Origin: Selaginella tamariscina
Lineage: Eukaryota > Streptophyta > Lycopodiopsida > Selaginellales > Selaginellaceae
Reading direction: 5' to 3'
Length of the DNA: 64,000 nt
NCBI GenBank assembly: GCA_003024785.1
Contig: PUQB01000061.1
Coordinates: 463,501 to 527,500 of the forward strand
Positions 5,430 to 56,968 of this stretch are shown one piece after another. Under the pieces are notes generated by a model. The model was not told where the DNA came from. It did not search any database and was given only the letters and a program-made list of their open reading frames with translations. Made by a program: the position numbers and the translations under genes. Within the stretch, counting starts at the first letter, position 1; each line of letters begins with the position of its first letter.

Positions 5430-5672
5430 AAACTGCCAATTGAAAGAAGCGTTCAAGCTATTCAAAAAGATATATATGTGCAAAATGAGTGTGACTTAGG
5501 TGACGCTAACCAATATCCTCAATGGTTACTGCTACGCGGGCCCGTTGAGCAAAGCTAGAACCCAAGTTCATCAACATGGAGGAGCTAGGGATTTCACCTA
5601 GTCTGCTCCATTTTCACAATATGGTCAATACTTTGAGCTGCATCAAGAAACTTGAGGAGGCCAAAGAATGCA
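5430..5672 (+). pseudogene. PPR protein relic, fragment 2
   Basis: The frame resumes as KEAFKLFKKIYMCKM, runs through a stop codon to VTLTNILNGYCYAGPLSKA, and after a one-base slip reads MEELGISPSLLHFHNMVN and then KKLEEAKEC. This is the late PPR region just before the C-terminal E-type segment ('M.E.GI.P...HY..MV' and 'EEAE'). It stops at the TGCA (5669-5672) that forms the left edge of the 15-kb transposon. The gene had at least one stop and one frameshift, or was under-called, so it is treated as a pseudogene. Confidence 0.75.
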
Positions 5673-5694
5673 CGTTGTAACTAAAGTGGGCATG
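5669..5694 (+). repeat. Left terminal inverted repeat of the 15-kb element
   Basis: The order is TGCA, a variable base (C), the core GTTGTAACTAAA, then GTGGGCATG. It pairs with 20618-20643. The same core ends the related element at 33689 and 39438. The base after TGCA differs among the four ends (C, A, T, C), which suggests it is not part of the conserved transposase site. Confidence 0.85.
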
Positions 5695-5955
5695 ATACGT
5701 GAAAATGGGAATATAAAATAAATTACTAATTAATACTTAAGTTTTAATTATTAATTAATCATTTAATTAATATGTAATTAAGCCTTAAATATTAATTAAT
5801 TAATTAATTAATCCTTCAATAACCTTACTTAGTAAGGAATATTCCTAAAATATCTTAGAATATTCATATTATTCTAAAAATAGTTTACAATAATGAAGAA
5901 ATACTATCAAACATAATTACAAATGAAATCATTTTCTTATCAACATGTTAATTTT
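5695..5955. other. AT-rich left subterminal region
   Basis: Runs of AATTAATTAATT, then AATATTCC and TAGAATATTC words. The reverse complement of this segment, diverged, is found at about 39170-39412 just inside the right end of the related element, so it belongs to the transposon. No gene. Confidence 0.65.
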
Positions 5956-7188
5956 TTATAAATACTTTCTTTCTATCATACAAAGAAATCTTTTCATTTT
6001 GTCTAAATCATCACTCTCCGGATTAATCAAATCATTTTGGTCAATATCTTGATGTTGTTGCCACCACTTAACACTCTCACGAATGCAATTGGGAGTTGCC
6101 ATCCTTGTTAATACATAAGATGTGATAAGAGAAGGTCTGCATAAAGGCTCATCTAAAAACTGACGTTCCTTAAGAATAATATTATAAAGCGCCCGGTTGC
6201 TATCCTTCATTTTATAAAATTCAATATCACGAGAAAGAAAAGCTTCAGGAAATGTATGATACGGTGGATACTGCTCACAAAAATTTTCGAGATTCTTCTT
6301 TCTGAGGCACGTATCCAAGTAGTTCACTAGCTCATCCATGATATCGGTATCAGAATATGGATCGAAAGTGATTGGATGAATACAAGCAATGTTTTGGTTG
6401 AGCATAGCCTTCTGAGGAGAGTCGTCTACTACTAACATCTGTGCGTTCTTCATTATCCTTAAGCGACTGATCTCCCCATGAGTCCCAATTATTCTTTCAT
6501 TCTTGAAGAAGTATGGCTTGCTTTCCTTTCTTATATTGTGAAATTCGAGAGGTTTATAACATATTCGCTGGTCAAAAATCCAATCTTTACGAATCACCTC
6601 TTCTGCAACACTACAATGTTTCTTAAGTAAATTCAACAGCGGTGTTAAGTTATGAATCTGCATGCATGACCAAATCCCCACAAGCGCACCCATCTCCTTA
6701 AGCTTTTGAAAGAGACGATCCAACCCTGGACGAAAAATAATATCATATCGAAATTTACCATGACAAGGAATGAAATCTCCTTGTTTGATTTCTTTTTTCT
6801 ATCCTGGGGCCTTTGTCGATGAAGCAGAACACCATTGACATCCAACAACACAATATGGCCATGAGTAACATGAGATAGCGTTGCCTCTTGAATACTTTGC
6901 AAATCACTTGTTTGCTCCCTTTCACATTTATCCGTTGCCACTATCTCGTTGCCTATCCCTTCATCATTTAATTGTACATCATCCTTACAAGATTCAGATA
7001 TTGCATGCGCTGAAGAAATTGATTTCGGAACTGAAGCCAATAAAAATGATGATGAAGTGGCCCCCATGGTAACGATGTTTTGAGCTGCATTATTATCCAT
7101 TTCCTGCATGAACTCTGTCATTCTGACATGTGGCACAAGAAATTGTCGCCAAACCCCTCTCTTACCTCATGCAATGCTGAAAATCCAT
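5956..7188 (-). CDS. FCP1/NIF-like HAD-fold protein carried by the transposon
   Basis: The gene starts with MDFQHCM at 7188. A 43-bp GT-AG intron (7123-7165) joins it to MTEFMQEMDNNAAQN. The N-terminal third has no recognised domain. HIVLLDVNGVLLHR is HAD motif I of the FCP1/NIF class, with DxN in place of the usual DxD. Then follow RYDIIFRPGLDRLF, MGALVGIWSCM, and near the end MLVVDDSPQKAML (HAD acidic motif VVDDSP). The protein would be about 395 residues. The frame slips once in an A-rich run just after motif I (near 6790). The related element keeps the same exon structure, so the slip may be a mutation or an under-called homopolymer. The family dephosphorylates phosphoserine or phosphothreonine, often on RNA polymerase II. 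Activity here is doubtful because the second motif I aspartate is Asn. Confidence 0.65.
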
Positions 7189-7392
7189 GTTCTCAATTAT
7201 TTCATTACATCTGCAAAATGATAATTAGCTGACCTTAAAATTATCAAGGTATATTATTTACCTTGTTAATGTGTGACCCATGTTTGAACTAAAAGCTTCA
7301 TTAATCCTTGAGAATTTATTTTCTGTACAAATATAAAAGAAATATACAAAAATGCCTTATGTTACACTCATTTACAACTATTCATCACTCTA

Positions 7393-10300
7393 TCAATTCA
7401 TTATCAATTCTTCTTCGCTATTACCTTCTGAGTGAGGCGAAGAAGGTCTAAGCCGCTTGTGAGATGGTTCAAGATCTTCTGCATCTTCTATTGATGTTTC
7501 CATGGGTCCTGGAGTGTGCGAATGTTCTGTACTCCTCGAGATAACTTCCGGTCTAATATCTGATTGAAGTTCGTTCTCAGACTCCGAGATTGAACCAGAT
7601 TCACCTTCAGAGCTATCGCACTTATCTGGAGGGAACTTTCTCAAATACGCCTTTATGGATTCGTTGGGGTACTCAGTTGAGACCCAATCTATCCACTTGT
7701 TCAGGTCCTCAACCATGGTCTTATCCTTTTCAACGGCAAACACACATGTATGCCGAAGGTAACACTCCTTCAAGACGGACCCCCTAGTGCAGTAGTCAAA
7801 AACCCACGCATCACTGTGAGGACCCCTGATCAAGTTGACGATGCTCCGTGCCGCTTGACTTGTAATGTTTGGATAACGTACATTGCCGAATACGTCACTC
7901 ATACCTATCGGTGTATCGGATGGAGGTTCAGGGCCGTTGGAGTGCAAACAGATGCCTGGCCAGTCATTTGGAAGCTTGAAATTGTTTGGCGCATTCCTAA
8001 CAACCAAGTGAACAACGGTATCAATGCACTTGGGATTAGCATCGTTCATATAAAATCCTGTCCAACGATGTCTATTCTTCTTGGCGAAGGCGAAGGCAAA
8101 AGTATCGGTGACATGAGCAAGAATCAAGAAATAAATACCTGAAAAAGTAGGTATCAGTGAAGAGCGCAAGCATGAATTCAATAATAAATACCTTCTATGT
8201 ATATGCTTGCACGGCTAAGTTTCTCCACCAGATCCTCTAGTGCCCTATCTGTCGAAAGATTTTTTGACACCCGCCGATCCATCACGAACAATTGAAACGG
8301 TTTCCTACAAGCAGTGATGTTACCCCATAAAGTCTCCGAATCTAACAACAAACATCTGTAGGGCTTGTCGTGATTCGTAGCATCCTCCTTTATAAGGTTC
8401 AATTCGGTTCTCCGCTGCTGAAGGACTGCCATAAGAGAAGGCGTCATCCCAATGTTCTCCTTTTTGGCGTTGGCGTGCAATAGATTCTTGCCTAGATCTT
8501 CCGATTGGTTCACCCATTCGACAAGCATATCATCGTTCGTCACATGCAAATATTTGCTGACCTCTTCATATGTTGAAGTCGAGGTCCAACCCAGTTTGTG
8601 GCAGTGTATTCCCAACCACTCCTTGAAATGCCTGACCGTCTTCAACTCCATTGCCTTGAGATGAAAAGGAGAGGTTGGGCTGCTGTTATTAATTTGTAGT
8701 TTGCCATCGATCACCAAATCAGCCAAGACTTCCATCTCCTCCATCGTTGTTCCATTTAAAGGCTTCAACCATGTGAGCTTGAAATCGTTGTCTACATCCT
8801 TTGTAGATTGAACAGACTTAGCCTTCGGCGTCTTACTGGGTTTCTTTGCAGACTTTTCTGAGGGCTCCCCTTCACTTGTCTGCTTCTTCTTCAGTGTTCC
8901 TTTTGAAAAGGATTCCATAATCCCCAACCATTTGGCAAAGATCCTATCTTCGGGGCAAGAAATCAACATCATCAGAAAGGATGTTTCCTTCCCGCCCACC
9001 TGGGCAAAATCAACTGCTGCAATTTCTTCAACTCTCTGAGGAAAAAGACAGATTAATATACCGGCGAGATAAATCCCGCCCAAACAATTTGCTTACCCGG
9101 TATTCCGCAGATTGTGTATTCCCTGCGGTAGCTCTTTGTGGTCGCTGAAGAGATTCCCACACGGCTCGCGTGTGTTTAAACTTCTCCCATATTTTGCTGT
9201 TGTAGTGGTTGGTGTCGGCAGCGTCCCATTCCGCCGATAACTTATGGTACTGCTCGATTGTGAGATTCGGCTTAGCTAAAAACGCCGATCTTTTTGTCAG
9301 CTTCTCACGGGTATGCTCGGAAAGTTTTGTTGCCATCGTTCCTTTGTTGTGTTCATCGAGAAGTCGTTGGGCTGCCGTTATTGTGTGCTGGCCACTAATG
9401 ATGTAGTACTTGATAGATTTTTATTCTCCGTCTGAATCTTCATGAGTTGTTCTGGTGTTGTGATCCAGACTTTGTCAGCGCCCTTCCTTCTTTCATAGTA
9501 TGGACACAAAACAGCATTATGTGGAACGGTATAAGAATTGTCGTCCTTCATCTTCTCCATGAGCTCAGCTACACGTTCCTGGTTGAGTGGCCTGTAATTG
9601 AAGTTTGGGTTGACGCTGCAATATTTAACCCTACAAGGATAAATCTTATCATCCAACATCATTTCCTTGTGACTTATTGCAGCATGAGATGCCACAGGTG
9701 CAGCTGACAAAACGATTGATGATTTTCTTTTGCGATCCGAATCAACATGTGTGATCCCCGACTGCAGCTGTTCTAGTGTTCTCGGCACACTCTTCCAGCT
9801 CCCAAAGCCCTAAGCAAATTGAACGTGATCTGTAGAGAACCTGAGACCGAGCCACCTCTCAATCTCCATTATGATGTCGCTGTGTTCTTCTTCAATGTGA
9901 AGAGGGAAGATTGCTCCACTTGCTGATTTTCTGTATTGTGAAGCAATATCTCCTGACAATACACCTACTCGATGAGTCTGAAGATTTCGAAGTAGACATC
10001 CAGATGGATCCCCTCCATAGATGGGCTTTCGTTGAGTTGAAGAAGAACTCCAAGGTCAACATCATTAGTGAACACGTGAACGTCATTATCCACAAGTCGA
10101 CAAAACCACCCGAATTAATGTTGTAACTGACGACCTCTGGATCCGAGAACGTGACATTGGATGGAACAAGGCATATGTGTCGAGCATCGTCCAATCTGGG
10201 TTCGCAGCCTGCTTTCGGGTGCTTGACTAGCGAATCTACTTTCCATTGTTTTGCTTGTCCATGAGATGTGACAGAGGTTAATTTGACAGCAACCATGGTT

Positions 10301-10531
10301 GCTCCAATGCGCTTCCCATTTATCTTAAAATATGGCCAAGTTGATTCCAGAATCCCCCTGCCCATCTCTTCTCCTGCTCTTGTCTTTAATGTCACCTCAA
10401 TTCCACATCTGAATACAAAAATGATTAGTTCAAGTATCCGAGTATAACAGATTTTATTTTAATTCTTACCCAGAATTTGACGACGACTCCATACTAATGA
10501 CTCGATCTCCTTGTTTGATCAAATCGTCCTT
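7393..10531 (-). CDS. ParB-like domain protein with degenerate methyltransferase-like C-terminus
   Basis: Exons on the minus strand: 10531-10470 (first Met at 10492), 10408-9097, 9035-8192 and 8138-7393, all with GT-AG borders; the last two junctions keep the frame. Exon 2 holds YRPLNQERVAELMEKM and, after a slip in an AAAAA run near 9418, YYIISGQHTITAAQRLL. These are the two signature blocks of ParB/Srx-type domains. Exon 3 has a Lys/Ser-rich linker (near 8800-8880) and CLLLDSETLWGN where DNA N6/N4 methylases have DPPY. Exon 4 ends the fold with NITSQAARSIVNLI, then WVFDYCTRGS and CVFAVEKD, the position of the SAM motif DPFxGxG...GxExD. Both catalytic motifs are degenerate. A Ser/Glu-rich tail follows. 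Other slips occur near 10100 and 9800-9950, so the gene is either decayed or mis-called. A DNA-binding regulatory role is an inference. Confidence 0.55.
9063..9080. repeat. Palindrome copy inside an intron of the ParB-like gene
   Basis: GGCGAGATAAATCCCGCC is an imperfect copy of the 18-bp array palindrome. It lies inside the 61-bp intron 9036-9096. The same intronic site survives in the related element (35714-35731), so it predates their separation. Confidence 0.7.
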
Positions 10532-10837
10532 CTGCAAAATAATACACTATGAATACAAATCATATAAAAACGCACACACACTTGTATAAACCCGAATATA
10601 CAAAAATAAATAAAAACAGAGAGAAAGTAACGTAATTAAAAAAAAAAAAAAACATTTGTGTTAGTGCAAAAGAAAGATAACATTTCGTTTTAGAACCACC
10701 ACAAATGTGAGCTCTGGACAGTTTTACATAGATTCCTAGCTTTTACTCGAAATATTATGATAAGATGATAAAAGTAAATAAAATGAGATATGCAACTTAT
10801 ATATACTAATACACATATATATTCACATGGAAGGTGC

Positions 10838-12310
10838 GGCGGGATTAATCTCGCCACCCCTTCAATGCCTCCTGAAAGAGTGGGCGGGATTAATCTCGCC
10901 ACCTTTCTGGAGGCCTTGAACGGGAGTGCGGAATTAATCTTGCCACCCTTCTCGGTCTCAGAGAGAACTGGGCAGGATTTATTTCTCACACCCCTTCAGT
11001 GACTCCAGAAAGGGGCGGGATTAATCTCGCCCACCATGTAAGGATGGTTAAATGAATTTCCCCACCCTTCCCAATTCTCTCCATTGGTATGTTGAAAACC
11101 TTCTACGTCTCAGACAGAAACGTTTAGGATTGGTCCGACTCACCAATGGAGAAAAAAGGAAGGGTGGCGGGATTCATTCCTCCAACAGGCATTGAAGACT
11201 CGGCGGGATTAATCCCGCCGCCCAGGGCCTTCACTCGGTCCCTATGCGGCGGGATTAATCCCGCCGGACGCCAATTCCCTGCGCGGAATCGGGCGGGATT
11301 AATCCCGCCGCCTAGGCACTTCAGCAGGCCAATGGCGGCGGGATAAATCCCGCCCGATTCCGCGCAGGGAATTGGCGTCCGGCGGGATTAATCCCGCCTC
11401 CCAGGCCCTTCACTCGGGCCTTAGTCGGCGGGATTAATCCCGCCGAACGCCAATGCCCTGTGCGAAATCTTGCGGGATTAATCCCGCCGCCTAGGCCCTT
11501 CAGGCAGGCCAATGGCGGCGGGATAAATCCCGCCCGATTCCGCGCAGGGCATGCGTACGCGGCGGGATTAATCCCGCCCACCATGTAAGGGATGGTGAAA
11601 TTAATCCCACCACCCTTCTCAGTTCCCTCCATTGGTATTTTGTAAACCTTCTCCGTCTCAGACAGAGTTAGTCGGGATTGATTCAACATACCAATGGAGG
11701 AAAAAAAGAAGGTGGCGGGATTAATCCCGCCACCGGGTAATGAAGGTTCGGAGAGACTAATCCCGCCGCCCTCTCGTAAATCATGCGCTCACATATATAT
11801 TGGCTGCGGCATTTTGAACAGGGATGGGTGGGGGCGGGATTAATCCCGCCGCTTATATCCTGCGGAAGTGCCTGAGCGGCGGGATTAATCCCGCCGCCCT
11901 CCGCGAAGGGCATGAGCGTGGGGCGGATTAATCCCGCCGTTCATGTCCTGCGTGAATTCCCTGGGCGGCGGGATTAATCCCGCCGCCTTACGCGCAGGAC
12001 ATGTCATGCAGGCTCTTCGGTTAGCCTTCCGTGCAGGATCTTTCATGCAGGCTCTTCGGTTAGCCTCATGAGCGGCGGGATTAATCCCGCCGCCCATCCC
12101 CTGTAAATGCCCTGCGCGGAATCCGCGGGATTAATCCCGCCCATTAGGGCCTTCACACAGGCCATTGCCGGCGAGATAAATCCCGCCGCATTCCGCGCAG
12201 GGCATGGGTGAGCGGCGGGATTAATCCCGCCGCCATAGCCTGCAGGCCTCGCGGCGGGATTAATCCCGCGCCGAGGCCATAAACCTATAGCGGCGGGATT
12301 AATCCCGCCG
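10838..12310. repeat. Left array of GGCGGGATTAATCCCGCC palindromes
   Basis: About 29 perfect or near-perfect copies of an 18-bp self-complementary word. Measured starts 11202, 11248, 11292, 11337, 11381 and 11427 give 44-46 bp spacing. The spacers are not constant but share pieces (CCAATTCCCTGCGCGGAATC, AGGCCCTTCA) and often form their own inverted repeats. The array begins about 300 bases upstream of the leftward ParB-like gene, with an A-rich non-coding gap between. Frames through it encode repetitive AGLIPP/GGINPA peptides, which I attribute to the repeat. Confidence 0.95.
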
Positions 12311-12389
12311 CTCGAGGGGCTTAGCGTGTGTGCGAGAGATAAAATTAATAAATAAAAAAATTATACAGATAAAAACACACACATATATA

Positions 12390-12462
<73 letters not shown>

Positions 12463-13185
12463 GTATGTATGTATGTATAGGAGTGTACGTGTGTGTGCAA
12501 GAGATAGATAAATAAATAAAATTATACAGTACTGGTACACATAATATATGTGTGTACATAGGTATATATATGTGTGTATATGTATATCGTGTGTATGCGT
12601 GTGAGCGAAACAAATAAAATCATACAGATAAACAAACACACACACACATATATATACACAGGAGTGTGCGTGTGTGTGCGAAAGATAAAACTAATAAATA
12701 AATAAAATTATACAGATAAACACACACATATATATGTGTGTATATAGATATAGAGAGTCTGTGAATATATAAGCATATATATAAACTAGTGTTATATACT
12801 ATTTGTTAATATGCATTGATTATATATATATATGTAAAGCAGTGTGCGTGTGTGTGGGAGAGATAGATCAATAAAAAAATTATATAGATACTGGTACACA
12901 TAATATATGTATGTATATATGTATATAGGTATATATATATGTATATGTATATTGTGTGTATGCGTGTGTGAGCGAAACAAATAAAATCATACAGATAAAC
13001 AAACACACACACACACATATATATACACAGGAGTGTGCGTGTGTGTGCGAGAGATAAAACTAATAAATAAATAAAATTATACAGATAAACACACACACAT
13101 ATATATGTGTGTATATATATAACCCATATGAATATATAAGCATATATATAAACTAGTGTTGTATACTATTTGTTAATATGCATTG

Positions 13186-13269
<84 letters not shown>

Positions 13270-13565
13270 GCAGTGTGCGTGTGTGTGGGAGAGATAGATC
13301 AATAAAAAAAAATTTATAGATACTGGTACACATAATATATGTATGTATATATGTATATAGGTATATATATATATGTGTATATGTATATCATGTGTATGCG
13401 TGTGTGAGCGAAACAAATAAAATCATACAGATAAACAAACACACACCCACACACACATATACATACACAGGAGTGTGCGTGTGTGTGCGAGAGATAAAAC
13501 TAATAAATAAAATTATACACACACTCCTATACATATATACATACATACACACACACACACAGATC
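12311..13565. repeat. Compound microsatellite block with a tandem ~370-bp duplication
   Basis: Long TA, TG and CA runs (for example TA at about 12403-12457, TG at about 13219-13266) are separated by a recurrent element, GCGAGAGATAAAACTAATAA, followed by TTATACAGATAAAC. A unit from about 12655 to 13020 is repeated at about 13020-13445. The block is part of the transposon, since a shorter version sits at the same place in the related element (36370-37080). No gene. Confidence 0.85.
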
Positions 13566-14530
13566 TCACCTGTGTGCACAGCCGCCGCCGCCGATTTCAC
13601 AGCCGCCGCCTCTTGAAACCCTAAGAATATACTAAACCCTAAAGGAATTAAATATATATATTAACCCTAATAGAATATTCCTTCTGAGAATATACTTAAA
13701 CCCTAAAAAGAATAAAATATAGACTCGCCCTAAACGAATATTCTTCCATTATATTATTAACGCGTGCGTGTGCGTGGGTGTATCACATACACCCCAAAAA
13801 TATAAATCATGCAGGGATTTAACATGTGTGTGTCCATGAGAGTGTTAAAGTTTCATGTGTATCAATACATACATACACATTGCATATATTAATACACATA
13901 ATATATACATACACACGTGTATACACACAGACATACATACATTACATGGGTTTAGGGTTTAGGGTTTTGGATTTAGGATGGATCATGCATGGTGTGTATG
14001 TATGAGAGAAGAGAGAGTGTTGAAAAATTATTTTTGTACACATTGCATATATTAGTACACATATATACTTACACATATTATACACAGATATACATACATA
14101 GTATATGAGAGAAGAGAGACAGTACATATTATGGATCATGCATGGTGTGTATTATACAGACAGACATACATACATATTAGTACATAATATTTGAGAGACC
14201 GAGTACATATTATAGATCATGCATGGTGTGTATGTTTGAGAGAAGAGACACAATACATATTAACATGGATCATGCATGGTGTGTATGTATGAGAGAAGAC
14301 AGAAAGTACACATATATACATACAGAGTACACATATATACATACACACGTGTATACACACAGACATACATACATATTACATGAGTAAATTCATTGTGTTA
14401 CATATTAGGGTTTAGGGTTTAGGGTTTAGGATGGATCATGCATGGTGTCAAGAGAGAGTGTTGAAAAATTATTTTTGTACACACATGTATACACAGGGTT
14501 TAGGGTTTAGGGTTAGGGTTTGCTCCCAAC
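13566..14530. repeat. Interstitial TTTAGGG repeats and a GGATCATGCATGGTGTG repeat family
   Basis: Telomere-type TTTAGGG repeats of 3-4 units lie at 13948-13976, 14405-14430 and 14497-14521. GGATCATGCATGGTGTGTAT followed by ATGAGAGAAGAGAGA recurs near 13978, 14133, 14213, 14268 and 14431, interspersed with ACATACATACA runs. A GCCGCC run lies near 13580-13610. No gene. Confidence 0.8.
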
Positions 14531-15600
14531 AAGCTTAATATAAATATTACACATGTAAATTCAATGTGTTACATACACACAGATTGAGTACATATATCAT
14601 ACATGCGTTGAACATGATGTTTTCAATAAAGAAGCAACATATTTCTTCAGTTTGGTTTAGGGTTGTGCATGTGTGTGCATATGTGTTTTTGTAAGTTCTT
14701 GTAATGCGTGTGTAAATTTATAATTGTGTTTATATATGTGTGCAAAACAAACATCAAATAATTAAGAAAATAATATTAATAAACACACTATGAACATATT
14801 TTAAATTATACATAATAATATATGATTTTATCTAATATATAGCCATATATAGTTTTAATAATATATATTAATTTAATATTAAAAAGGTTTAACATTGAAA
14901 TATTCTTGAAATAATAAGAAATTAATTGAGAAAATCCCATTAATATATACAAATGTAAATTAAGTACTCAAATAATTAACTAAATTAATTATCATAATCA
15001 TGTTTAATATTGGAATATTCTTGGAATAATAAAAATAATAAAGAATATCCCATTAATATAAAGAAGATTAATTACTCAAGTAATTAAGGAAATGATATTA
15101 ATATACACACTATGAACATATTTTAAATTATACATAATAATACATCATTTTATCTAATATATAGTCATATATAGTTTTAATAATATATATTAATTTAATA
15201 TTGATAATAAGGTTTAACACAGGAATATTCTTGAAATAATAACAAATTAATTGAGAAAATCCCATTAATATATACAAATGTAGAATAATTACTGCAATAA
15301 TTAAGAACAAGACTAATTTAATTATGATAATCAGGTTTAATATTAGAATATTCTTCAAATATTATAATAAAGAATATCCCATTGATACTAGGAAATGAAA
15401 ATTAAATACTCGAGTAATTAAGAAATAATAATAATAAACAGACTAAATATATTTTAAATGATACATAATAATATATCAATTTATTTATTGTATAAGTATA
15501 TATTATATATATATATATAATATAAATATACTTGAATACTAAGAATGTAGAATATAGTCTAAAATTTCGTAATATTAAACAGCTTGAATCACTTGAATAA
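14531..15600. repeat. AT-rich tandem duplication, ~320-bp unit
   Basis: The stretch beginning AATAATTAAGAAAATAATAT near 14757 is repeated from about 15080 and partly again near 15418. It includes CACTATGAACATATTTTAAA and GGAATATTCTTGAAATAATA. It is non-coding and extremely AT-rich, and might serve as an unwinding or spacer region in the element core. Confidence 0.7.
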
Positions 15601-15932
15601 CATTAAATGCAATTTTAAAATACTCATTGGAACTGAAGAGTATATATGTCAGAGTGTCGGATATTTGTGTCAACTCATCTTAAATTTTATTTTCTGTTCT
15701 TTTTAAAAAATTTGAATTTCTGACATATGTATTGTCGGTCTGACATGTAAATTTGAAAATGCATTTAATTTCCCACTCAAATTCAGATCTGGTTCTTTCT
15801 CCGGCAAGGGTTTCTTCATTTCTGTATTTTTCACTCTTTAGATCTTTCTTTTTTCTTCATAGTTCATCTCAGGAGCGATTAAATTGGGTGCTATTCTTTA
15901 TAGGAAAGCACGGGCCTTTCAGTGCTGTTTAC
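15601..15932 (+). promoter_or_regulatory. Probable promoter and 5' untranslated exon of the transposase gene
   Basis: This segment is less AT-rich than its surroundings and has a pyrimidine-rich leader (TTTCTTCATTTCTGTATTTT and similar). It ends at CAAGTAAGT (about 15931), a strong splice donor. The first credible acceptor is TTTATGTGCAG at about 17099-17109, four bases before the transposase ATG. If so, the second palindrome array lies within a 1.2-kb leader intron. Confidence 0.45.
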
Positions 15933-16097
15933 AAGTAAGTATTATAAACAAATTTAAAATACTTATAAAGATTCACTCTCTTACATTCTCTCTTAAAATT
16001 ACAATTTAGGGGTTTAGGAATGCATTAGGATTATAATATATTCCGTTAGGGATTTATCCCGTTTAAATATCCTTTTAACTTAATATTCTAGGTTAAC

Positions 16098-16966
16098 CGG
16101 GGCGGCGGGATTAATCCGGCCATTTCTTTTTTCGCCTCTTCGAAGAGGTGGTGGGATTAATCCCGCCATCATCTCTCGGGCAATGCTTCTCCGCCACTGA
16201 AAAAGAGTGGCGGGATTAATCCCGCCGATAACTTTCTCAACTGATGAAAAGTTACCAGAATTTATTAGAAAGAGTTGTCGGCGGGATTAATCCCGCCAAT
16301 CATTTTAGGAGGCAGGGAAGGGGTGGCGGGATTAATCTCGCCACCACATCCATGTTTTAAGGATTTGGGGACAGGATTTATCCCGAGATCTCTTTGAAAT
16401 CATAGTTTTGGAGAGAGTTATGTGCGGGTTTAATCCGCCACCCATTCCCCATCGTAAGAATTGTGGGCGGGATTAATCCCGCCTTGGACTCCCTCCGACA
16501 AGGAAGAGCCGGCGGGATTAATCCCGCCGCCTCTTCCTCCTCGGGGAGTCCAAGGCGAGATTAATCCCGCCGACTCTCTCCGACGAGGAAGGGAGTCTGG
16601 CGGGATTAATCCCGCCGACTCATCCTCGCCGGAGAGAGTCGGCGGGATTAATCCCGCCAACTCTCCTCGCCGGAGAGAGTCGGCGGATTAATCCTGCCGG
16701 ACTCCCCCGAGGAGGAAGAGGCGGCGGGATTAATCCCGCCGGCTCTTCCTTGTCGGAGGGAGTCCAAGGCGGGATTAATCCCGCCGGACTCCCTTCCTCG
16801 TCGGAGGGAGTCCAAGGTGGGATTAATCCTGCCGCTCTCTCCGAAGGGGTTGAGTCGGCGGGATTAATCCTGCCGACTCTCTCCGAAGGGGTTGAGTCGG
16901 CGGCGGGATTAATCCCGCCGACCGTTCCTCGTCGAAGGGATTCGTGGGCGGGATTAATCCCGCCCA
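16098..16966. repeat. Right array of GGCGGGATTAATCCCGCC palindromes
   Basis: About 19 copies. The leftmost are degenerate and irregularly spaced. From 16511 the starts 16511, 16554, 16599, 16641 and 16682 run every 41-45 bases. Spacers such as GACTCATCCTCGCCGGAGAG, followed by AGTC, are themselves partial inverted repeats, so neighbouring units could fold into longer hairpins. It lies directly upstream of the rightward gene, mirroring the left array. Confidence 0.95.
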
Positions 16967-17112
16967 TCAGTTGTATTAATCAAACATGAGATATTATCTC
17001 TAAACATAATTATGTATTATTGCATATGCATATTATTAAGTAACCGTAATTCAGATTTCTTAGAAATATTTAAACAGATATCATAAATAATACAATTATT
17101 TATGTGCAGGAA

Positions 17113-20100
17113 ATATGTATAAAGTATGTCTTCTTCGAAACAACGAGATAGTTGGCACTGGAACTGTGGAAGTTCGAGATAATAATGCATCATGTCACAA
17201 TATTGCCCAAGGATCTTGTGTGTACGTATGGGTGAACACCATTTACAAGCATGTTGAGGTTCTGGGAATGGAATTTGAGGAGGGTTCTCCTGTATTGTGG
17301 AATTGGATGAAGTCAAGGCTGACACAGAATATGCAGAGTCACAAACAAATAGTACCACGAGTTTACTAGATGATGGCTTGCCTGCTATGATGGATGAGGT
17401 GATTCTCTTTCTTCGTGAGATTGAAGTTGGAAGAGGCATCATCACAGCTATAAATCCAATGGAAGCAGTGTCAGAAGAGAAACTAGGGTCCGACTTCGTG
17501 GGTGTAGTTGTGACAGAGGTTTCACCTAATGGCACATTGTATCCTGGATCCCTCGTGAGGTGGCGAACATCTGAATTAAGACGGCAAGATGGTTCAACAT
17601 ATTCTGGGTTGGACTTCAATAATAACAACCCGGAAGAATAATTCATATTTGAAGAGGTTCCTTGCATTGGTCCTATTGTAAGAAAAAGGCGATTCATGGG
17701 TTGTAGATCTTCCTCTGCAAGTTTTAGCAAGAGGGTAAAGATGGATCCTACATCTTCCGAAAGTGTTACGAGCATTTCCACGATTGACTGTTGCAAAAGA
17801 AGTGTTGTCAGATGGCAGACCGGAATGAAATTACCCAATGTAGACATGTCTTTCGTATGCTCACCCAAAAGCAAAGGCATGAGTTTGTATATGCTGCACT
17901 AATTGGGTGTATTGATGGAATGGCCTCGGACACAGGTTATCAGAGTACATCCATGGTATTTAATAAGGTGGCCATCTGCTTCAAAGCTTGGTACAGTATA
18001 TACGGGATCCCAAAGACCACGTTCTACCGTCGGAGGGATGAGTGGCTAGATGGAGCGCGAACCTCAGTACATGGGAACACTCGCTTGGTCAAAACCCGCT
18101 CTCACATCATGGCAGCCATAGAGATACTCAAGGCTTTTGTGGAAGCAAATGCAGACAGGATGCCTCACAAATGCCGAACCACAAATGCAGGGGTCAGGGA
18201 AAATCTCAAGGTTTTGCCTTCAATCTACACTCAATTGAAGCTGTGTGAACATGTGAACAAGTGCCTCAGTTTGATGGGGCTCCAAGCAATCTGCACTGGT
18301 ACCTTCAACAACATATGGAATACTCATTTTAAGGATGTGGAGATTGCAAAACACTCTAGCTTTTCCAAGTGTGACACTTGTACATCATTGAATGCTGCAG
18401 AGGCTTGTGCAAAAACCTTGGTGGAGATCACTGCCATTCAAAAGAAGATGGAGGCCCACATGATTGCACAACAAACTTGCCGGTCTCAGTACTATGCACA
18501 CCACATGCTTTCTGTGTCACGCCCATCAGAGTACCTGTGCTTGATCCATGACAAGATGGATCATTCAAAGACCAGCATTCCAAAGCTCTTTGCAACACCA
18601 AAGTGCCTTGGAAATGTCATGAAACTTCCGATTTCATTGACAGGTGTGCTAACACATGGACACGGTTGTGAGTCATATGGACACTTTTCACTTCCACATT
18701 GGTCTAGCGACTCCAATTTCACTATTGGGTCATTAGCCATGTGTTTCAGAAACCTTGAAGCCCACTCACAGACAAGTCCTATCAGTGATCTCAAAGTGAA
18801 GAAACAACACCTTCAACCTTTACATAATGCTCTCATGAACACGTCTGCACTTGAGGCTACTTGGGAATATGAGAGGCATTGTCAACAGCCTGCATAGAAA
18901 ATAGATGGCCCTGTTGAGAGTTCTGGTTCAGTGGAGGGATCTAGCTCAAATAGTGTACATGTGTCCTCAACATCAAATAAGCTTCCTCTTCATTTGCTTT
19001 TACAGATGGATAATTGTGCAGGCGAGAACAAAAATAGGTAAATCATTTTACTTAAGGGTTTCTCAAGCTCATACTTACTTTTATTTTCTAGATATGTGCT
19101 AGCATACTTGTCAATGCTTGTTGCCAAAGGTGTGTTTGAAACAATCACGCTCATTTTCTTATGGTTGGTCACACTCATGAAGATATTGATGCGTTCTTCA
19201 GCAAGGTCTCCAACTCTACAAAAAGGACAAGTGCACTTACCTTACCGCATATGATGAATCTTTTTGAAAATTGCATCTCCAAAAAAAGTTGTGCTTTGCT
19301 TGTGACTGAGGTGCCAGACTTCAAAAAATTTCTCAAGGAGTATATAAAAGAGGGGAGTGATTCTTTAGTTGGTCACCTTGTGCCGCTACAATTCTTTTTC
19401 TCCATACGAGATGGTATACCTATTATGCAATACAAGTTACGGCCATCAGAGCAAGAGTGGTTACCGAAAGAGGGGTTAATGCTCTTCAAAAGTGGAGAGA
19501 ATGGAAAGCCACTTCTCCCAGAAGGACAACCAGACCCTATTCCATTGAGTGCCCAGCTCAAGGAACAAGAGGTTATTATTGATGGCATCAAAAAATATGT
19601 GGCATGGGTTCAAAAATCGATGCCAAAGAATTCTGATAAGGCAACTGGTTACTCAGAATTATATAAGCATGTGGTTGACTATTGGGAGACTGTTGTTCGA
19701 GAGTTGGAAGGGCCTACTGTCACAAGTACAGAATTGCAAGTAGTGATGTGGAAGTGCAAACCCCACACTTTGTTGGACAAAGGAACCAAAAACCTAAAGC
19801 ATACTTTGATTACTGCCAGGATCTTCAAAAACTAATGATGGTTCTCATTACTCCAGATGCGTCATATAATCAGCCTATTTGGATGGGTCAAATTATCGAC
19901 ACACCTGAAGTAATCACAAAAAATAGTATTGTTAAGGTTGCATGGTTCAAACCACAAAAAAGGCGACACAAGAAGGAGAGCGAAAGATATAATGGATGCC
20001 TAGAGAAAACATGGTCTCCCAATCAAAAAGACCCAGCAAGTTTTATAAATGTTAAATCCATTCGATATGGGTGGATGTCAAGAAGCATTGATAAAGTCAC

Positions 20101-20143
20101 GATTAACAAAACTGCAAAGGAATGTATGTTTTCTGAAGCTTAA
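17113..20143 (+). CDS. RNase H/DDE-like transposase candidate (DUF7869-like)
   Basis: The N-terminal part (from ATG 17113) has two similar small blocks, NEIVGTGTVEVRDN and EVGRGIITAINP, resembling accessory domains of plant transposase proteins. The central part (17812-18897) includes GIPKTTFYRRRDEWL, then KCDTCTSL and LIHDKMDHSKT. After an in-frame TAG (18895) comes LQMDNCAGENKN. A 57-bp intron (about 19037-19093) follows, then VGHTHEDIDAFFSKVS. The D...DN...HxHEDID order matches the RNase H-like core of large uncharacterised eukaryotic transposon proteins. A C-terminal module has IWMGQIID and VKVAWFKPQKRR and ends MFSEA. Frame slips occur near 17310, 19155 and 19750. About 900 residues if they are sequencing errors. 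A piece of the same protein survives at 34190-34620. Confidence 0.6.
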
Positions 20144-20617
20144 AGCAATTACAAAATTATAAATATCATATATTTAATATTCATAATTATTATAAACTCT
20201 TTAATAATAGTACTAAATTGTTTACTTAACTATATAAATTTAAAAAATGATATGGAAGATTGACTATTATTATAGGATTTTATATATATTATTACTACTT
20301 CAAATTTTTAATTAATAATGTTATATTTAAATATTAATATTTTAATAACAACATCAATATTTATATAATGTACCTCTTATGTTCTTCCTTAATTGTTATA
20401 TTAGGCAATATATTATATAATTTAATACCTCTTACTTTTAAATGTTATTAATTTTTGTTCAATGAATGCTATAATTTATTAAAGGGTAGAATACAAAATA
20501 GAATATTCTAAAGAATATTCTATTTTCAAACATATATTCTAAAGAATATTCCTTTAATATTAGAAGATGCTAATTAAATAGCTAAAATTGCTAATTATTA
20601 AGAAATGGGACTATAGC
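20144..20617. other. AT-rich right subterminal region
   Basis: Non-coding, with AGAATATTCT words. Its reverse complement, diverged, occurs at about 33700-34190 just inside the left end of the related element, so it is transposon sequence. Confidence 0.65.
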
Positions 20618-20643
20618 CATGCCCATTTTAGTTACAACTTGCA
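20618..20643 (-). repeat. Right terminal inverted repeat of the 15-kb element
   Basis: CATGCCCATTTTAGTTACAA continues to C, one base, then TGCA. It is the reverse complement of 5669-5694 with two mismatches. Confidence 0.85.
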
Positions 20644-21038
20644 TAAGAGCTCATCAATAACATGCCATACCTGCCAGACACGGTGTCGTGGGTGACGCTA
20701 CAAAATGCATGGGATATTGAGAGTGGTAAAAGTGCGGCAATAACAAAGTTTTTCATGTTCATGAGGTACACCAACAACACTATAATGCTCAGCATTCGTT
20801 TATCCCTGATATGTTATTATTGGTCTTATATCAAAAAAATGCATTCCAAAAGGTTGTCCTCTAGATTAATTTTTAAGCGGCTTTGGTCCATATCCTATTG
20901 TACGAAGATTGGATTATCAAATGTACCTAGTTTGCGAATGAAGTGGACCAAAATATACATGTTCAATGATTGTCTCCATATCATTGCGTTTGAATTCAGA
21001 GGAGGGAGTAACATAAGGATTCTATGGAATATACCTTA
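20640..21038 (+). pseudogene. PPR protein relic, fragment 3 (C-terminal part)
   Basis: Immediately after the transposon the frame reads INNMPYLPDTVSWVTLQNAW, then ESGKSAA. This is the conserved block of PPR proteins that follows 'EEAE' ('INNMPF.PD...W..LL.AC....G...LGK'). It completes fragment 2 across the insertion with only one extra base. Further downstream the match fades (KKMHSKRLSS, MKWTKIYMFND). The open frame ends at 21038. Confidence 0.7.
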
Positions 21039-33590: not shown

Positions 33591-34189
33591 GAAAAAAAAC
33601 ATATAATATTGTAACTGCTCATGGTTACTTCGGTCGAGAAGGTGTTTTGATCAGAATCAACAGCCAGAGTTCATTGTCGTTTCCTTCATGCATGTTGTAA
33701 CTAAAGCAAGTTTAGTGATTTAATTAACAATTTTTAATATTAAAGGTATATTTTTTAAAATAATATATGTTTAAAGAAAGAATATTCTTTAGAATATATA
33801 TTAAAAATAGAATATTCTATTTTTGTAATTGATTTTTTAATAAATTATAACATTGATGGACAAAAAATTAATAACATTATAAAAGTAAAAGGTATTAAGT
33901 TATATAATATATTATATTTACGATTGTATGGGCTTAATATACATGTTATAAAGAGCATAAGAGGTACATTATATAAATATTTATGTTGTTATTAAATACT
34001 AATATTTAAATATAGCAGTAATTAATAATTTGTACTATTAATAATAATATGTACAAAATCCTATATGCAATTTTCCATATCTTTTGATAAATGTATATAG
34101 TTAAGGAAACAATTTGGTACTATTATTAAAGAGTTCATTATAATTATGAATAATTTAGTATACTATATTTTGTAATTACTTTAAGCTTT

Positions 34190-34620
34190 AGAAGACATTC
34201 ATTCATTTACAGTTTTGTTAATTGTGACTTTATCAACGCTTCTTGACATCCATCCATATCGAATAAATTTAACATTTATAAAACATGTTGGGTCTTTATG
34301 ATTAAGAAACCATTTTCTCTAGGCATCCATTATATTTTTCACTCTTCTTCTCATGTTGCCTTTTTTGCGGTTTGAACCATGGAACCTTTACCATATTGTT
34401 TTTTGTTATGACTTCAGATATGTCGATAATTCGACCCATCCAAATAGGCTGATTATATGGCACATCTGAAGTAATGAGGACGATCATTAATTTTTAAGAT
34501 TCTTGTAACAATCAAAGTATGATTTAGGTTTTTGATTTTTTTGTCTAACAAAGTGTGTGATTTGCACTTCCACATCACTACTGGCTTCTATGTCGACCAC
34601 ATGCTTATATAGATTTAAGT
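34190..34620 (-). pseudogene. Transposase C-terminal scrap
   Basis: The frame 34487-34302 reads DVPYNQPIWMGRIIDISEVI and VKVPWFKPQKRQHEKKSE. It corresponds to the end of the transposase-like gene at about 19840-20020 of the large element. The rest of that gene is deleted. Confidence 0.75.
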
Positions 34621-34639
34621 AACCAGTCACCTTATTACA

Positions 34640-36340
34640 TCTGTAAAATGATTGTTAGCTAGCCTTATAATTACCAATATATATTATTTACTTTGTTAAT
34701 GTGTGACCCATGTTTGAACTAAAAGCTTCATTAGTCTTTGAGAATTTATTTTATGTACAAATATACATAAAATATACAAAAATGTCTTTTGTTACACTCA
34801 TTTACAACTATTTATTACTTTAATAACTCATTAACAATTCATCTTCGCTGTTACTTTCTGGTATCAAGTAAGTGTGCAAGAATTTAATAATAAATACCTT
34901 CTTTGTACATGCTTGCATAGCTAAGCTTCTCCACCAAATCTTCTAGCACCTTGGATTTTCTGACACCCACCAATCTATCACGAACATTTAAAACAGTTTT
35001 CTGCAGGTAGTGATGTTACTTTATAAAGTCACAAACATCTGTAAGGCTTGTCATGATTCGTAGTGTCCTTCTTTATCAAGTTCAACTTGGTTAAAGGACT
35101 GGCATAAGAGAAGGCGTTATGGTGATGTTCTTCTTTCTCGCGCTGACATGCAATAGATTCTTGCCCAGATCTTCCAATTGGTTTACCCATTGGACAAACA
35201 TATCATCGTTTGTCACCTGCAAATATTTGTTGACCTTCTCATATGCTAGAGCCGAGGTCCAACCCAGTTTATGGCAGTGTATTTCTAATCACTTCTTAAA
35301 GTGTCTGATCGTTTTTAGCTCCATTGCCTTGAGATGAAAAGGAGAGGTGGGGCTGCTGTTGTTAAACTATAATTTGCCATCAGCCACCAAATTAGCTAAC
35401 ACATCCATCTCCTCCATTATAGTTCTGTTCAGAGGCTTCAACCATGTGAGCTTGAAGTCATTGTATACATCCTTTGTAGGTTGGACAGACTTAGCCTTGG
35501 GCGTTTTACTAAGGTTTTTTGCAGACTTCTCCGAGGGCTTCACTTGTTTGCTTTTTCTTTATTCATTTTGCGAACGATGTCATGATTCCCACCCATTTGC
35601 AAAGACCTTGTCCTTGGGGCAAGAAATCAGCATCATATGAAAGATGTTTTCTTCATGCCTATTGTAATTTCTTCAGCTCTCTACAAATGGAATAATTAAA
35701 AAATTAATATACTGGCGAGATAAATCCCGCTAAGAATTTTTTTTACCCACTTTATTTTCTCCTTGCAGTAGCTCTTTGTAGCCGCCCAAGAGTTATCCAC
35801 ATGGATCACTTGTGTTTGAACTTCTCCCATATTTTGCTGTTGTACTAGTTGGTGTCTGCAGCATCCCGCTCTACATATAACTTATAGTACTACTCGGTTA
35901 TGAGATTCGGCATAGCTAAAAAAGCTGATCTTTTGTCAGCTTCTCACGGGTGTGCTCAAAAAGTTTCATTGTCATCATTTTTACACTCCGTCTGGATCTT
36001 TGCGATTTTTTTGGTGTTATTCCACACTATCTCAGTCCTTTTCTTTTTTTCATAATATAGGCACAAAACGACATTATGTGGAACGGTGTACGAAATTGTC
36101 GTCCTTCATCTTCTCTATGAGATCAACTACACGTTCCTGGTTCAGTGGCCTATAATTGAAGTTAGGGTTAACACTGCAATTCTTAACCCTACACTCGTAA
36201 ATCCTGTCATTCAACATCATTTCCTTGTGGCTTATTACAACATGGGAGACAGAACGACATAAGACTTTCTTTTATGATCAGAATCAAGATATGTGAGCCC
36301 CGACTACAACTGTTCTAGTGTTCTTAACACATTCTTCCAA
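34640..36340 (-). pseudogene. ParB/methyltransferase-like gene, internally deleted copy
   Basis: Collinear with 7205-9800 of the large element on the same strand, but lacking its 7430-8150 (methyltransferase C-terminus). Many stops and slips. The intronic palindrome copy is kept at 35714-35731. Ends near 36340, where palindrome and microsatellite DNA starts. Confidence 0.7.
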
Positions 36341-36364
36341 CCTTTGAAAATTCCTAGGCAAATT

Positions 36365-37112
36365 AAACATGATAGTATACATACACACATATATATGTAT
36401 ACACACACACACATATATATGTATATGTATATGCAGGAGTGTGTGTGTATGCGAGAGATAGATAAATATATTATATTATACAGATAAACATATATATATT
36501 TGTATATATATATACAAGAGTGTGGCAGGATTAATCCAGCCACCCTTTTAGGAGGGGTGGCCGGATTAATCCTGGCACCTTTCTAGGAGGCTTAGAAGGT
36601 GGCGAGATTAATCCCACTACACTCTTATATATACATATATAAATATATATGTGTGTTTATTTATATAATATAATATATTTATCTATCTCTTGCACATACA
36701 CACTCTTGTATATACATATACATATATGTGTATGTGTGTGTATGTATACTATCTGTATAATTTAATTTATTTATGTATCTCTCGCACAGACACACACACA
36801 CACACACATGTATATACATATATATGTGTGTGTGTGTGTGTCTGTATAATATAATTTATTTATTTATTTCTTACACACACACACAAACTATATGTGTATG
36901 TACATGTGTATTTGTATATATATATATAATTACTTTATCTCTCTCTTGAATGTATATGTATGTGTGTATTTGTATATATATAATTTCTTTATATATCTCT
37001 CTCTCACACACACAATTGTATGTATATATTATGTTTATATGTATTTTATAAGTTTTTTATATTTCTCTATTTATCACGCTTGAAGTGGTGGTGGGATTAA
37101 TCCCACCACCCC
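36365..37112. repeat. Microsatellites and degenerate palindromes of the related element
   Basis: TA/CA/TG runs with the GCGAGAGATAGATAAA word. Three decayed palindromes lie at about 36526-36620 (for example GGCCGGATTAATCCTGGC) and one clean variant, GGTGGTGGGATTAATCCC, closes with ACCACC near 37086-37110. This shows that palindromes plus microsatellites are an ancestral part of the element. Confidence 0.8.
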
Positions 37113-37727
37113 AATGATGCTGATTTCAGATGTATTGATACAATTATTCACTTGGTTGTTAGGAATATGCCAAATAATTTTAAACTTTCAAATGACTGGC
37201 CAGGCATTTGTTTTCACTCCAATGGGCTTGAACCACCATTCAATACACCGATAAAAACAATGTATGTTATCCAAACATTACATGTCAAGCTACACAGAGC
37301 ATTGTCAAATTGATCAGAGGTCCTTACAATGATGCATGGGTTTTTAACTACTGTGCTAGGGATCCGTCTTGAAGTGTTACCTTTGGGATACATGTGTGTG
37401 TGCCGTTGAAAAGGATAAGACCATAGTCGAGGACTTGAACAGGTTCTCAACTGACTATCCATACATGAATATTTGAGAAAGTTCCCTCCCGAGAAGTGCA
37501 ATAGCTCTGAGGAGGAATATGGTTCAATGTCAGAGTCTGAGAAGGATCTTGAACAAGATATTAGACCAGAAATTATCTCAGGGAATAAAGAACATTCACT
37601 TACTCCATTGACCATGGAAACATTAACAGAAGAAATGGGAGATGTTGAACGATCTTCCAAGCGGCTAAAACCTTCTTTGCCTCACTCAGAAGGTAACAAC
37701 GAAGAAGAATTATTAATGAATTGTTAG
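37113..37727 (+). pseudogene. Methyltransferase-like C-terminal region, plus-strand copy
   Basis: The last frame (37473-37727) reads MRKFPPEKCNSSEEEYGSMS and LPHSEGNNEEELLMN, matching the Ser/Glu-rich tail of the large element's ParB-like protein. The upstream part is recognisable but out of frame. It faces away from the minus-strand copy at 34640-36340. Confidence 0.7.
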
Positions 37728-37920
37728 AGTGACGAATAGTTGTAAATGAGTGTAACATAAGGCATTTTTGTATATTTCGTTTATATTTGTACAGAAAATA
37801 AATTCTCAAAGATTAAAGAAGCTTTTAATTCAAACATGGGTCACACATTAACAAGGTAAATAATATACCTTGGTAATTACTAACTATCATTTTACAGATG
37901 TAATAAAAACAGTTGAGAAC

Positions 37921-39160
37921 ATGGATTTTCAAAAGTGTCATGAGGTAAGAGAGAGGTGTGGCAAAACTTTCTTGTGCCACATGTCAGAATGATAGAGTTC
38001 ATACAGGAAATGGATAATAATGTAGCTCAAAACATCGTTACTATGGGGATCACTTCAGTTTTTGCATCACCATTTCTATTATCTTCAGTTCTTAAATCAC
38101 TTTTTTCAATGCGTATAATATTTGAATCTTGTAAGGATGATGTACAAGTAAATAATAAAAGGATCAGCAACAATATAGCATCAAAAGATAAATGTGAAAG
38201 GGACCAAATAAGTGAGTTGCAAAGCATTCAAGAGGCAACGTTGCCCCTTGTTACCCATGGTCATATTGTGTTGTTGAATGTCAATGGTGTTTTGCTTCAT
38301 TGACAAAGGCCTGAAACAAAGAAAAAGAAAACAGGGTGATTTCATTTGTTGTCATGGTAAATTTCAACATGATATCATTTTTCGTTCGGGGTTGGACCCT
38401 TTCTTTTAAAAGCTTAAAGAGATGGGTGCACTTATGAGGATTTAGTCATGCATGCAGTTTCACAATTTAACACTGCTGTTGAATTTGCTTAATAAACATT
38501 GTAGTGTTGTAAAAGAAGTGATTCGTAAAGATTGGATTTTTGACCAGCGAATATGTTATAAATCTTTCGAATTCTACAATGTAAGAAAGGAAAGTAAGCC
38601 ATACTTATTCAAGAATGAAATATTAATTGGGCTTCATTGGGAGATCAATCAGTTAAGGATAATGAAGAATCCACATATCTTAATGGTAAACGACTCTCCT
38701 CAAAAGGTTATGCTCAACCAAAACATTACTTATATTCATCCAATCACTTTCGACCCATATTCTGATATTAATACCATGGATGAGCTAGTCAACTACTTGG
38801 ATATGTGCCTTAAAAAGAAGAATTTTGAAAACTTTATGAGTAATATCTATCATATAAAACATACCATGACGCTTTTATTTCTCATGATTTTGAATTTTAT
38901 AAATTAAAGAAGAACAATTGAACGCTCTACAATATTATTATTAAGGAACATCATATTTTAGATAAGCTTTTATACATTTCTTTTCTTATCACATTTTATG
39001 TATTAACAAGGATGGCAACTCTTAACTTCATTCATGAGAGTGTTAAGTGGTAAAGATATTGACTAAAATGATTTGATTAATCTGAAAAGCAATGACTTAA
39101 ACAAAATGAGGAGATTTCTCTATATAGTTAAGACAAAAGTAATTAGAAAAAGATTAACAG
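37921..39160 (+). pseudogene. FCP1-like HAD gene, degenerate copy
   Basis: It starts ATGGATTTTCAAAAG with the same short intron as the large element's gene. It then reads HGHIVLLNVNGVLLH (motif I aspartate now Asn) and stops. It resumes at 38452 with LTLLLNLLNKHCSVV, WIFDQRICYKSFEF and LMVNDSPQKVMLNQ. The motif I substitutions and several stops mean it is inactive. Confidence 0.75.
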
Positions 39161-39438
39161 ATTGATAAGGAAATGATTTAATTTGTAATTATGTTTGAAA
39201 GTATTTTTTAATTATTGTAAAATATTTTTACAATGAAGAATAATACAAATATTTTAAGATATTTTAGGAATATTCCTTATTAAATAAGGTTAATGAAGGA
39301 TTAATTTGTTAATTAATTAATATTTAAGGCTTAATTATATATTAATTAAATAATTAATTAATAATTAAAACTTAAAAATTAACAATTTATTTTATATCTC
39401 ATTTTCATGTATCATGCCCATTTTAGTTACAACGTGCA

Positions 39439-39793
39439 TCTTTGTTAATGAATGAGCTTCATAATTGACTTTCAAGTATTACGTTTGACATTTATAACCC
39501 ACACCCATTTATGAAGTAGGTGTATTTTAAAGAAGACTCATTTAAGACTCAGCTGAAGTCTTAACTACGTCCAGGTTATTTATTAATAATTTAATTACTT
39601 AAAAGACTTTATTTCAAAAGTCATCCACAGTCTAGAGCAAGATTTATATTCGTGGTAAAGTCTTACATATACTGTATATATAACTTTCTTAAAGAATGAA
39701 ACCGCACTAGTATGCTTTTTTTGTCAAGATATTATATTATACATAACACACACACACACACACACACGCTCTACATGGGGAGAGAAACATGAA
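39439..39793. other. Intergenic, no gene seen
   Basis: AT-rich spacer between the transposon and the GLUTAMINE DUMPER-like gene. An AC run lies at about 39748-39768. Confidence 0.5.

Positions 39794-43626: not shown

Positions 43627-47543
<3,917 letters not shown>

Positions 47544-52034: not shown

Positions 52035-56968
<4,934 letters not shown>

Follow-up and report, generated by a model that had tools for sequence, protein, structure and literature searches.

We analysed a 64,000-nucleotide stretch of the Selaginella tamariscina genome (assembly GCA_003024785.1, contig PUQB01000061.1, positions 463,501 to 527,500), hereafter the window, and found in it a terminal inverted repeat (TIR) DNA transposon with genes for a transposase and an FCP1-like protein and with a core of palindrome arrays. 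The element very probably represents a cut-and-paste TIR family of about 14.5-15 kb that encodes a 1,021-amino-acid DUF7869 transposase of the DDE/D type, makes a 4-bp target-site duplication (TSD) and is most likely to fall in or beside the Sola superfamily. An initial annotation of this DNA had proposed a TIR transposon with three genes. The transposon, its FCP1-like and transposase genes and its arrays all stand, and the ParB/methyltransferase identity given to the third gene, here called the accessory gene, finds no support in our searches.

Ends and target-site duplication

The element, its duplicated target and a relative in the same window occupy the following positions:

5664-5667: left target-site duplication, AAGA (flank comparison, frame of the joined flanks)
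5668-20644: whole transposon, 14,977 bp including ends ATGCA...TGCAT (27-bp ends and TSD, empty site of a nested copy, alignment of eight full-length copies)
5668-5694, plus strand: left terminal inverted repeat, ATGCACGTTGTAACTAAAGTGGGCATG (25 of 27 positions identical to the right end, counted from the ATGCA outward edge; 3,325 exact 17-base ends genome-wide)
20618-20644, minus strand: right terminal inverted repeat, reading ATGCAAGTTGTAACTAAAATGGGCATG on that strand (pairing with the left end)
20645-20648: right target-site duplication, AAGA (flank comparison)
33688-39439, minus strand: second, non-autonomous relative with the same end cores, flanked by CTTC and CTTT

At both elements the inverted ends carry the core GTTGTAACTAAA adjoining TGCA, as the initial annotation had reported. 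It had set the edges of the first element at 5669 and 20643; TGCA is indeed found at both, inside the ends, and the edges now lie at 5668 and 20644.

The duplication was resolved by a copy (C727) inserted within another, diverged copy of the family, which is about 95% identical to the rest and provides an empty site. The joined flanks of C727 align over the junction to all eight element copies, at 93.4-95.0% identity. In the alignment to copy C838 a single TTTG stands at the empty site, which lacks ATGCAT; at the occupied site TTTG flanks ATGCA...TGCAT left and right. The target duplication is therefore 4 bp and TGCA is part of the element. TGCA had been taken for the duplicated target, a proposal we abandon, as the window copy duplicates AAGA and the nested copy TTTG. 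Empty sites joining elsewhere than at TGCA had been named in advance as an outcome that would overturn the earlier account, and the nested copy's empty site does join at TTTG; this corrects the element ends and leaves the mobile unit standing. An element running from 5669 to 20643 with TGCA as its duplication would accord with the TGCA at both edges of both elements, but it is extremely improbable: the empty site refutes it for one insertion, and among 21 long facing end pairs A precedes TGCA in every left end and T follows it in 20 of the 21 right ends, which is not expected of flanking DNA.

These pairs come from the first 100 end places listed, which follow contigs C1-C75 in order and are not a random draw. 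In ten of them the two 4-bp flanks are equal, where random reassignment of right flanks predicts 0.59; the unequal flanks of the other 11 may reflect recombination, mispaired ends or decay. We also examined 11 copies for two ends (ten fetched and the window copy). Both ends were located in eight, all with equal 4-bp flanks (two of them read by eye), and in three of these (C914, C490 and C1145) one end has a changed or inserted base.

Joining the flanks of the window copy through one AAGA gives an uninterrupted 169-residue reading across the junction (EEAKE-LINNMPYLPDTVSW). It looks PPR-like by eye, in keeping with the interrupted PPR relic proposed earlier, but Pfam found no PPR domain in it, and that part of the proposal is left without a domain match.

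The transposase

Four stretches of the element describe the transposase gene and its catalytic motifs:

17115-20143, plus strand: DDE/D transposase gene DUF7869, with an intron at 19038-19091 (Pfam DUF7869 1.4e-18, copy comparison, 55 homologues, fold)
18538-18573, plus strand: region of the first catalytic aspartate (CLIHDKMDHSKT), a residue shared by all 25 aligned homologues
19003-19035, plus strand: region of the second catalytic aspartate (QMDNCAGENKN; aligned homologues)
19161-19202, plus strand: third acidic cluster (GHTHEDIDAFFS; E, D, D; aligned homologues)

The match to DUF7869 (PF25273) lies at 19140-19832 and scores 67.6 bits, the curated cut-off being 26. Among the 55 homologues found, 25 relatives were aligned and are about 25-51% identical to the element's transposase; DUF7869 proteins of Riccia, corals, mussels and sea urchins have the same catalytic motifs. 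Predicted models of the homologues adopt an RNase H-like, transposase-type catalytic fold with a core as in the Mos1 mariner transposase, a likeness of fold for which no sequence kinship is claimed. The domain match, the shared motifs and this fold together uphold the earlier reading of a transposase-like gene. Tc1/Mariner elements differ in duplicating TA and in being mostly 1.5-6 kb long in plants (PMC10741241). A search for the term DUF7869 in the paper collection used here returned no paper. The present analysis places this domain of unknown function, found in plants and in animals, in a mobile element and predicts its fold. One DUF7869 protein (P0030) is filed under a bacterial metagenome-assembled genome (Vulcanimicrobiaceae), possibly from a misbinned eukaryotic contig.

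Relative to other copies, the window transposase has one stop, a 1-base gap, a 76-base gap and smaller differences. Copy C518 is the only one of eight full copies with an open transposase gene (one intron, 1,021 amino acids) together with both ends, and on these features it is the predicted autonomous copy. The transposase would bind the 27-bp ends, excise the element and join it to a target staggered by 4 bp, and the few copies with an open gene would mobilise the broken ones in trans.

Copy number and age

A search of the genome with the element ends, which the initial annotation had called for, gave 1,691 + 1,634 occurrences of TGCANGTTGTAACTAAA in 300.7 Mb and 0 + 0 for the reversed control. 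The element is thus very abundant. Among the first 100 ends listed there are 22 facing neighbours less than 25 kb apart, of which 16 are separated by 13.7-15.4 kb; complete copies of the family measure about 14.5-15 kb. Scaling from these ends suggests some hundreds of full-length copies. At one locus (L035, C1:1443106-1443410) the ends are 243 bp apart with TTAA on both sides, read by eye, as in a short, end-only derivative resembling a miniature inverted-repeat transposable element.

The eight full copies are 98.1-99.5% identical in pairwise comparison, so that the family probably spread recently. Both extra genes, intact or broken, are present in all eight. The window copy has frame breaks or stops in all three genes; scattered single-base indels in the copies may be assembly errors.

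Relationship to Sola and other superfamilies

CACTA, hAT, MULE, PIF/Harbinger, Mariner, Maverick and Helitron were each considered and rejected on the TSD, which is 2-3 bp in CACTA, 8 bp in hAT, 9 bp in MULE, 3 bp in PIF/Harbinger, TA in Mariner, 5-6 bp in Maverick and absent in Helitron, compared with 4 bp here. The initial annotation, which held that the gene content and the palindrome-array core fit none of the plant superfamilies that it named, had left out Sola. Sola1 is published for the moss Physcomitrella (PMC9033089).

Sola elements are described as having a DDD/E transposase, a 4-bp duplication, inverted ends and sizes to more than 15 kb (PMC10741241, PMC9033089). The Selaginella element shares a DDD/E transposase with an RNase H-like core, as judged from the predicted fold. 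It shares the 4-bp duplication (eight of eight two-ended copies, ten of 21 unselected long pairs and one empty site) and inverted ends, its 27 bp with 25 matching lying within the 11-1124 bp of Sola. The size range and a non-flowering plant host also agree; the fern Azolla is reported to have more Sola elements than Salvinia (PMC6786969). Two extra genes and a pair of palindrome arrays set the Selaginella element apart. The mean length of bivalve Sola1 is 5,445 bp (PMC10294476). Sola2-Fanzor elements of Dictyostelium and Polysphondylium likewise combine 4-bp duplications beside short inverted ends with an accessory protein (PMC3627910), but theirs is Fanzor1, whereas in the Selaginella element an orphan protein accompanies a NIF/FCP1-like one. 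On this comparison of descriptions the family is probably Sola-like. The DUF7869 elements might instead form a superfamily of their own, sharing the 4-bp duplication and the DDD/E triad with Sola by chance: no result ties DUF7869 to Sola by name, the Sola groups are said to share very low identity with one another, and Sola1, Sola2 and Sola3 are themselves distinct subgroups (PMC4455052). We think this unlikely, as duplication length, inverted ends, catalytic triad, size range and occurrence in moss all agree with Sola.

A rearranged relative in the window

The second element had been put forward as another copy with the same ends. Its end cores are in place at 33688-39439 and its 27-bp ends match at 19 of 27 positions, but its interior is rearranged and most of the transposase is missing, only a C-terminal part being left; the transposase alignment covered 149 codons. 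Identity to the first element is about 77-89% in the main pieces and 69-77% in the array pieces. The FCP1-like relic is in place, the accessory-gene relic is inverted and the palindromes are partly kept. It is thus an internally rearranged derivative or relative and no simple second copy.

The two extra genes

The genes that accompany the transposase gene both lie on the opposite strand:

5959-7121, minus strand: FCP1/NIF-like gene, frame broken in the window copy (Pfam NIF)
7396-10492, minus strand: accessory gene, for which a joined model with introns gives about 976 amino acids; the window copy is broken (selection signal, frame state)

The NIF domain was matched at 2.7e-9 on an open reading frame of the window and at 1.2e-12 on the joined reading (48.3 bits, cut-off 21.8), in agreement with the FCP1-like gene first proposed; by this domain match it is a putative NIF/FCP1-like phosphatase. 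The first motif reads DVNGVLL, with an asparagine where motif I of HAD phosphatases usually has its second aspartate, and VVDDSP follows further on. A sequence search with the protein gave no homologue. The gene is open in one of the eight full copies.

The likeness of the accessory protein to ParB (9361-9611) and to methyltransferases (7771-8291) had been seen by eye only. We found no match to either in Pfam (E up to 5 and up to 10) or in NCBIfam or PHROGs (E up to 10), no believable domain of any kind in these collections and no phage match. A word-based search of limited reach, run on 5.77 billion proteins with residues 250-960 of the joined model, gave no relative at E <= 0.001. In these searches the ParB/methyltransferase label finds no support, although the protein may be a very distant relative of either family. 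A palindrome-like site (GGCGAGATAAATCCCGCC) occurs at 9066 in a putative intron of this gene, with a similar site at 35717 in the second element.

We compared each gene with its counterpart in the second element, excluding codons with gaps or stops. The dN/dS of the accessory gene was 0.32 (0.24-0.43), against 0.66 and 0.93 in the wrong frames. The values for the FCP1-like gene (0.52; wrong frames 0.70 and 0.59) and for the short transposase piece (0.49; wrong frames 0.66 and 0.36) decide nothing. The comparison thus demonstrates purifying selection for the accessory gene alone. Among the young copies pN/pS was 0.36 for the transposase and 1.82 for the FCP1-like gene; two parts of the accessory gene gave 0.54 and 0.21.

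Both extra genes could have come from the host by chance capture and simply hitch-hike with the element. Gene capture is common in plant transposons, the FCP1-like gene is relaxed in young copies and the accessory gene is broken in the eight copies examined. We nonetheless find this rather doubtful, given that relics of both genes also survive in the second, diverged element, that the accessory gene has a clear in-frame selection signal and that protein searches gave no homologue of either.

Palindrome arrays and a possible control system

Two arrays of an 18-bp palindrome precede the accessory gene and the transposase gene:

10841-12306: first palindrome array, made up of GGCGGGATTAATCCCGCC and its variants and lying upstream of the accessory gene
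16049-16964: second palindrome array, whose end is about 150 bp short of the transposase start codon

All 23 occurrences of GGCGGGATTAATCCCGCC in the window fall within the first element. The shorter GGATTAATCC occurs 32 times in the first element, three times in the second and nowhere else in the window; in seven other copies it is found 183 times inside and not once in 37.3 kb of flanks. Genome-wide the 18-mer has 27,128 sites, both strands giving the same sites, and the control has none. The first 100 palindromes listed are all on contig C1, where 95 are found within 15.5 kb of an exact end, on its element side, a zone that covers 8.3% of the C1 stretch; the other five may stem from copies that are decayed or nested. 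The 100 fall into 17 clusters; 12 of these are arranged as six pairs with about 4 kb between partners, like the element's two arrays. The palindrome-array core noted at the outset is thus far beyond chance in the window, in other copies and in the genome. At C1:130054-130227 four palindromes have no exact end within 15.5 kb and would be either a free array or the remains of a decayed copy.

Outside the 18-mer the arms show no clear covariation, and a putative protein-binding site therefore fits better than a hairpin. It is quite possible, though we lean somewhat the other way, that the arrays are passive, a tandem repeat growing by slippage inside the element with no binding partner. The lack of covariation would agree with this, as would the array size, which varies between 22 and 47 units at up to two mismatches among 11 copies (one partly N). 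Slippage accounts less readily for a core kept as an exact 18-bp palindrome, for the 27 of 43 spacings below 120 bp in the window that measure 42-46 bp, for arrays at two separate places, each before a gene, for the paired clusters on C1 and for the retention of three GGATTAATCC in the diverged second element.

The best-supported working idea, modelled on VANC in VANDAL elements, is that the palindromes serve regulation. An element-encoded protein, most likely the 976-amino-acid accessory protein, would bind the palindrome as a dimer, and binding would control expression or silencing of the element through both promoters. TnpA in Spm is a further parallel for element-encoded control. VANDAL transposases belong to the MULE superfamily, unlike that of the Selaginella element. 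In anatomy, the combination of arrays and an accessory protein appears closest to VANDAL/VANC of Arabidopsis, which has a dense, element-specific, non-coding short motif with repeats varying between copies, an accessory protein and arrays used to recognise its own copies (PMC5735166). The VANC21 motif is 9 bp and non-palindromic, in contrast to the 18-bp palindrome here, and for VANC binding and demethylation have been shown (PMC5735166), whereas the likeness drawn here is one of anatomy.

Weighing against this account, and most heavily against control through the palindrome, the accessory gene is broken in all eight copies tested, none of which has all three tested parts open; any working protein would have to come from a minority of copies, or would belong to the past. 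A self-encoded control or anti-silencing system, evolved independently of VANDAL, in which the orphan protein reads the palindrome at more than 27,000 sites, most of them in the arrays that precede the element's own transposase and regulator genes, is a tentative proposal that we judge improbable as it stands. If true, palindrome control would help to explain the thousands of ends of 15-kb elements in a 300-Mb genome, and self-recognition by motif arrays would have arisen in another superfamily with another kind of motif.

Other features of the window

Elsewhere, the window contains fragments of a kinesin motor domain at 44357-44851 (Pfam 1e-10) and of an EMP70 domain at 60794-61246 (Pfam 8.8e-7). 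Tandem arrays outside the element lie at 2648-2859 and 56477-56655, with units of 40 bp and 18/36 bp.
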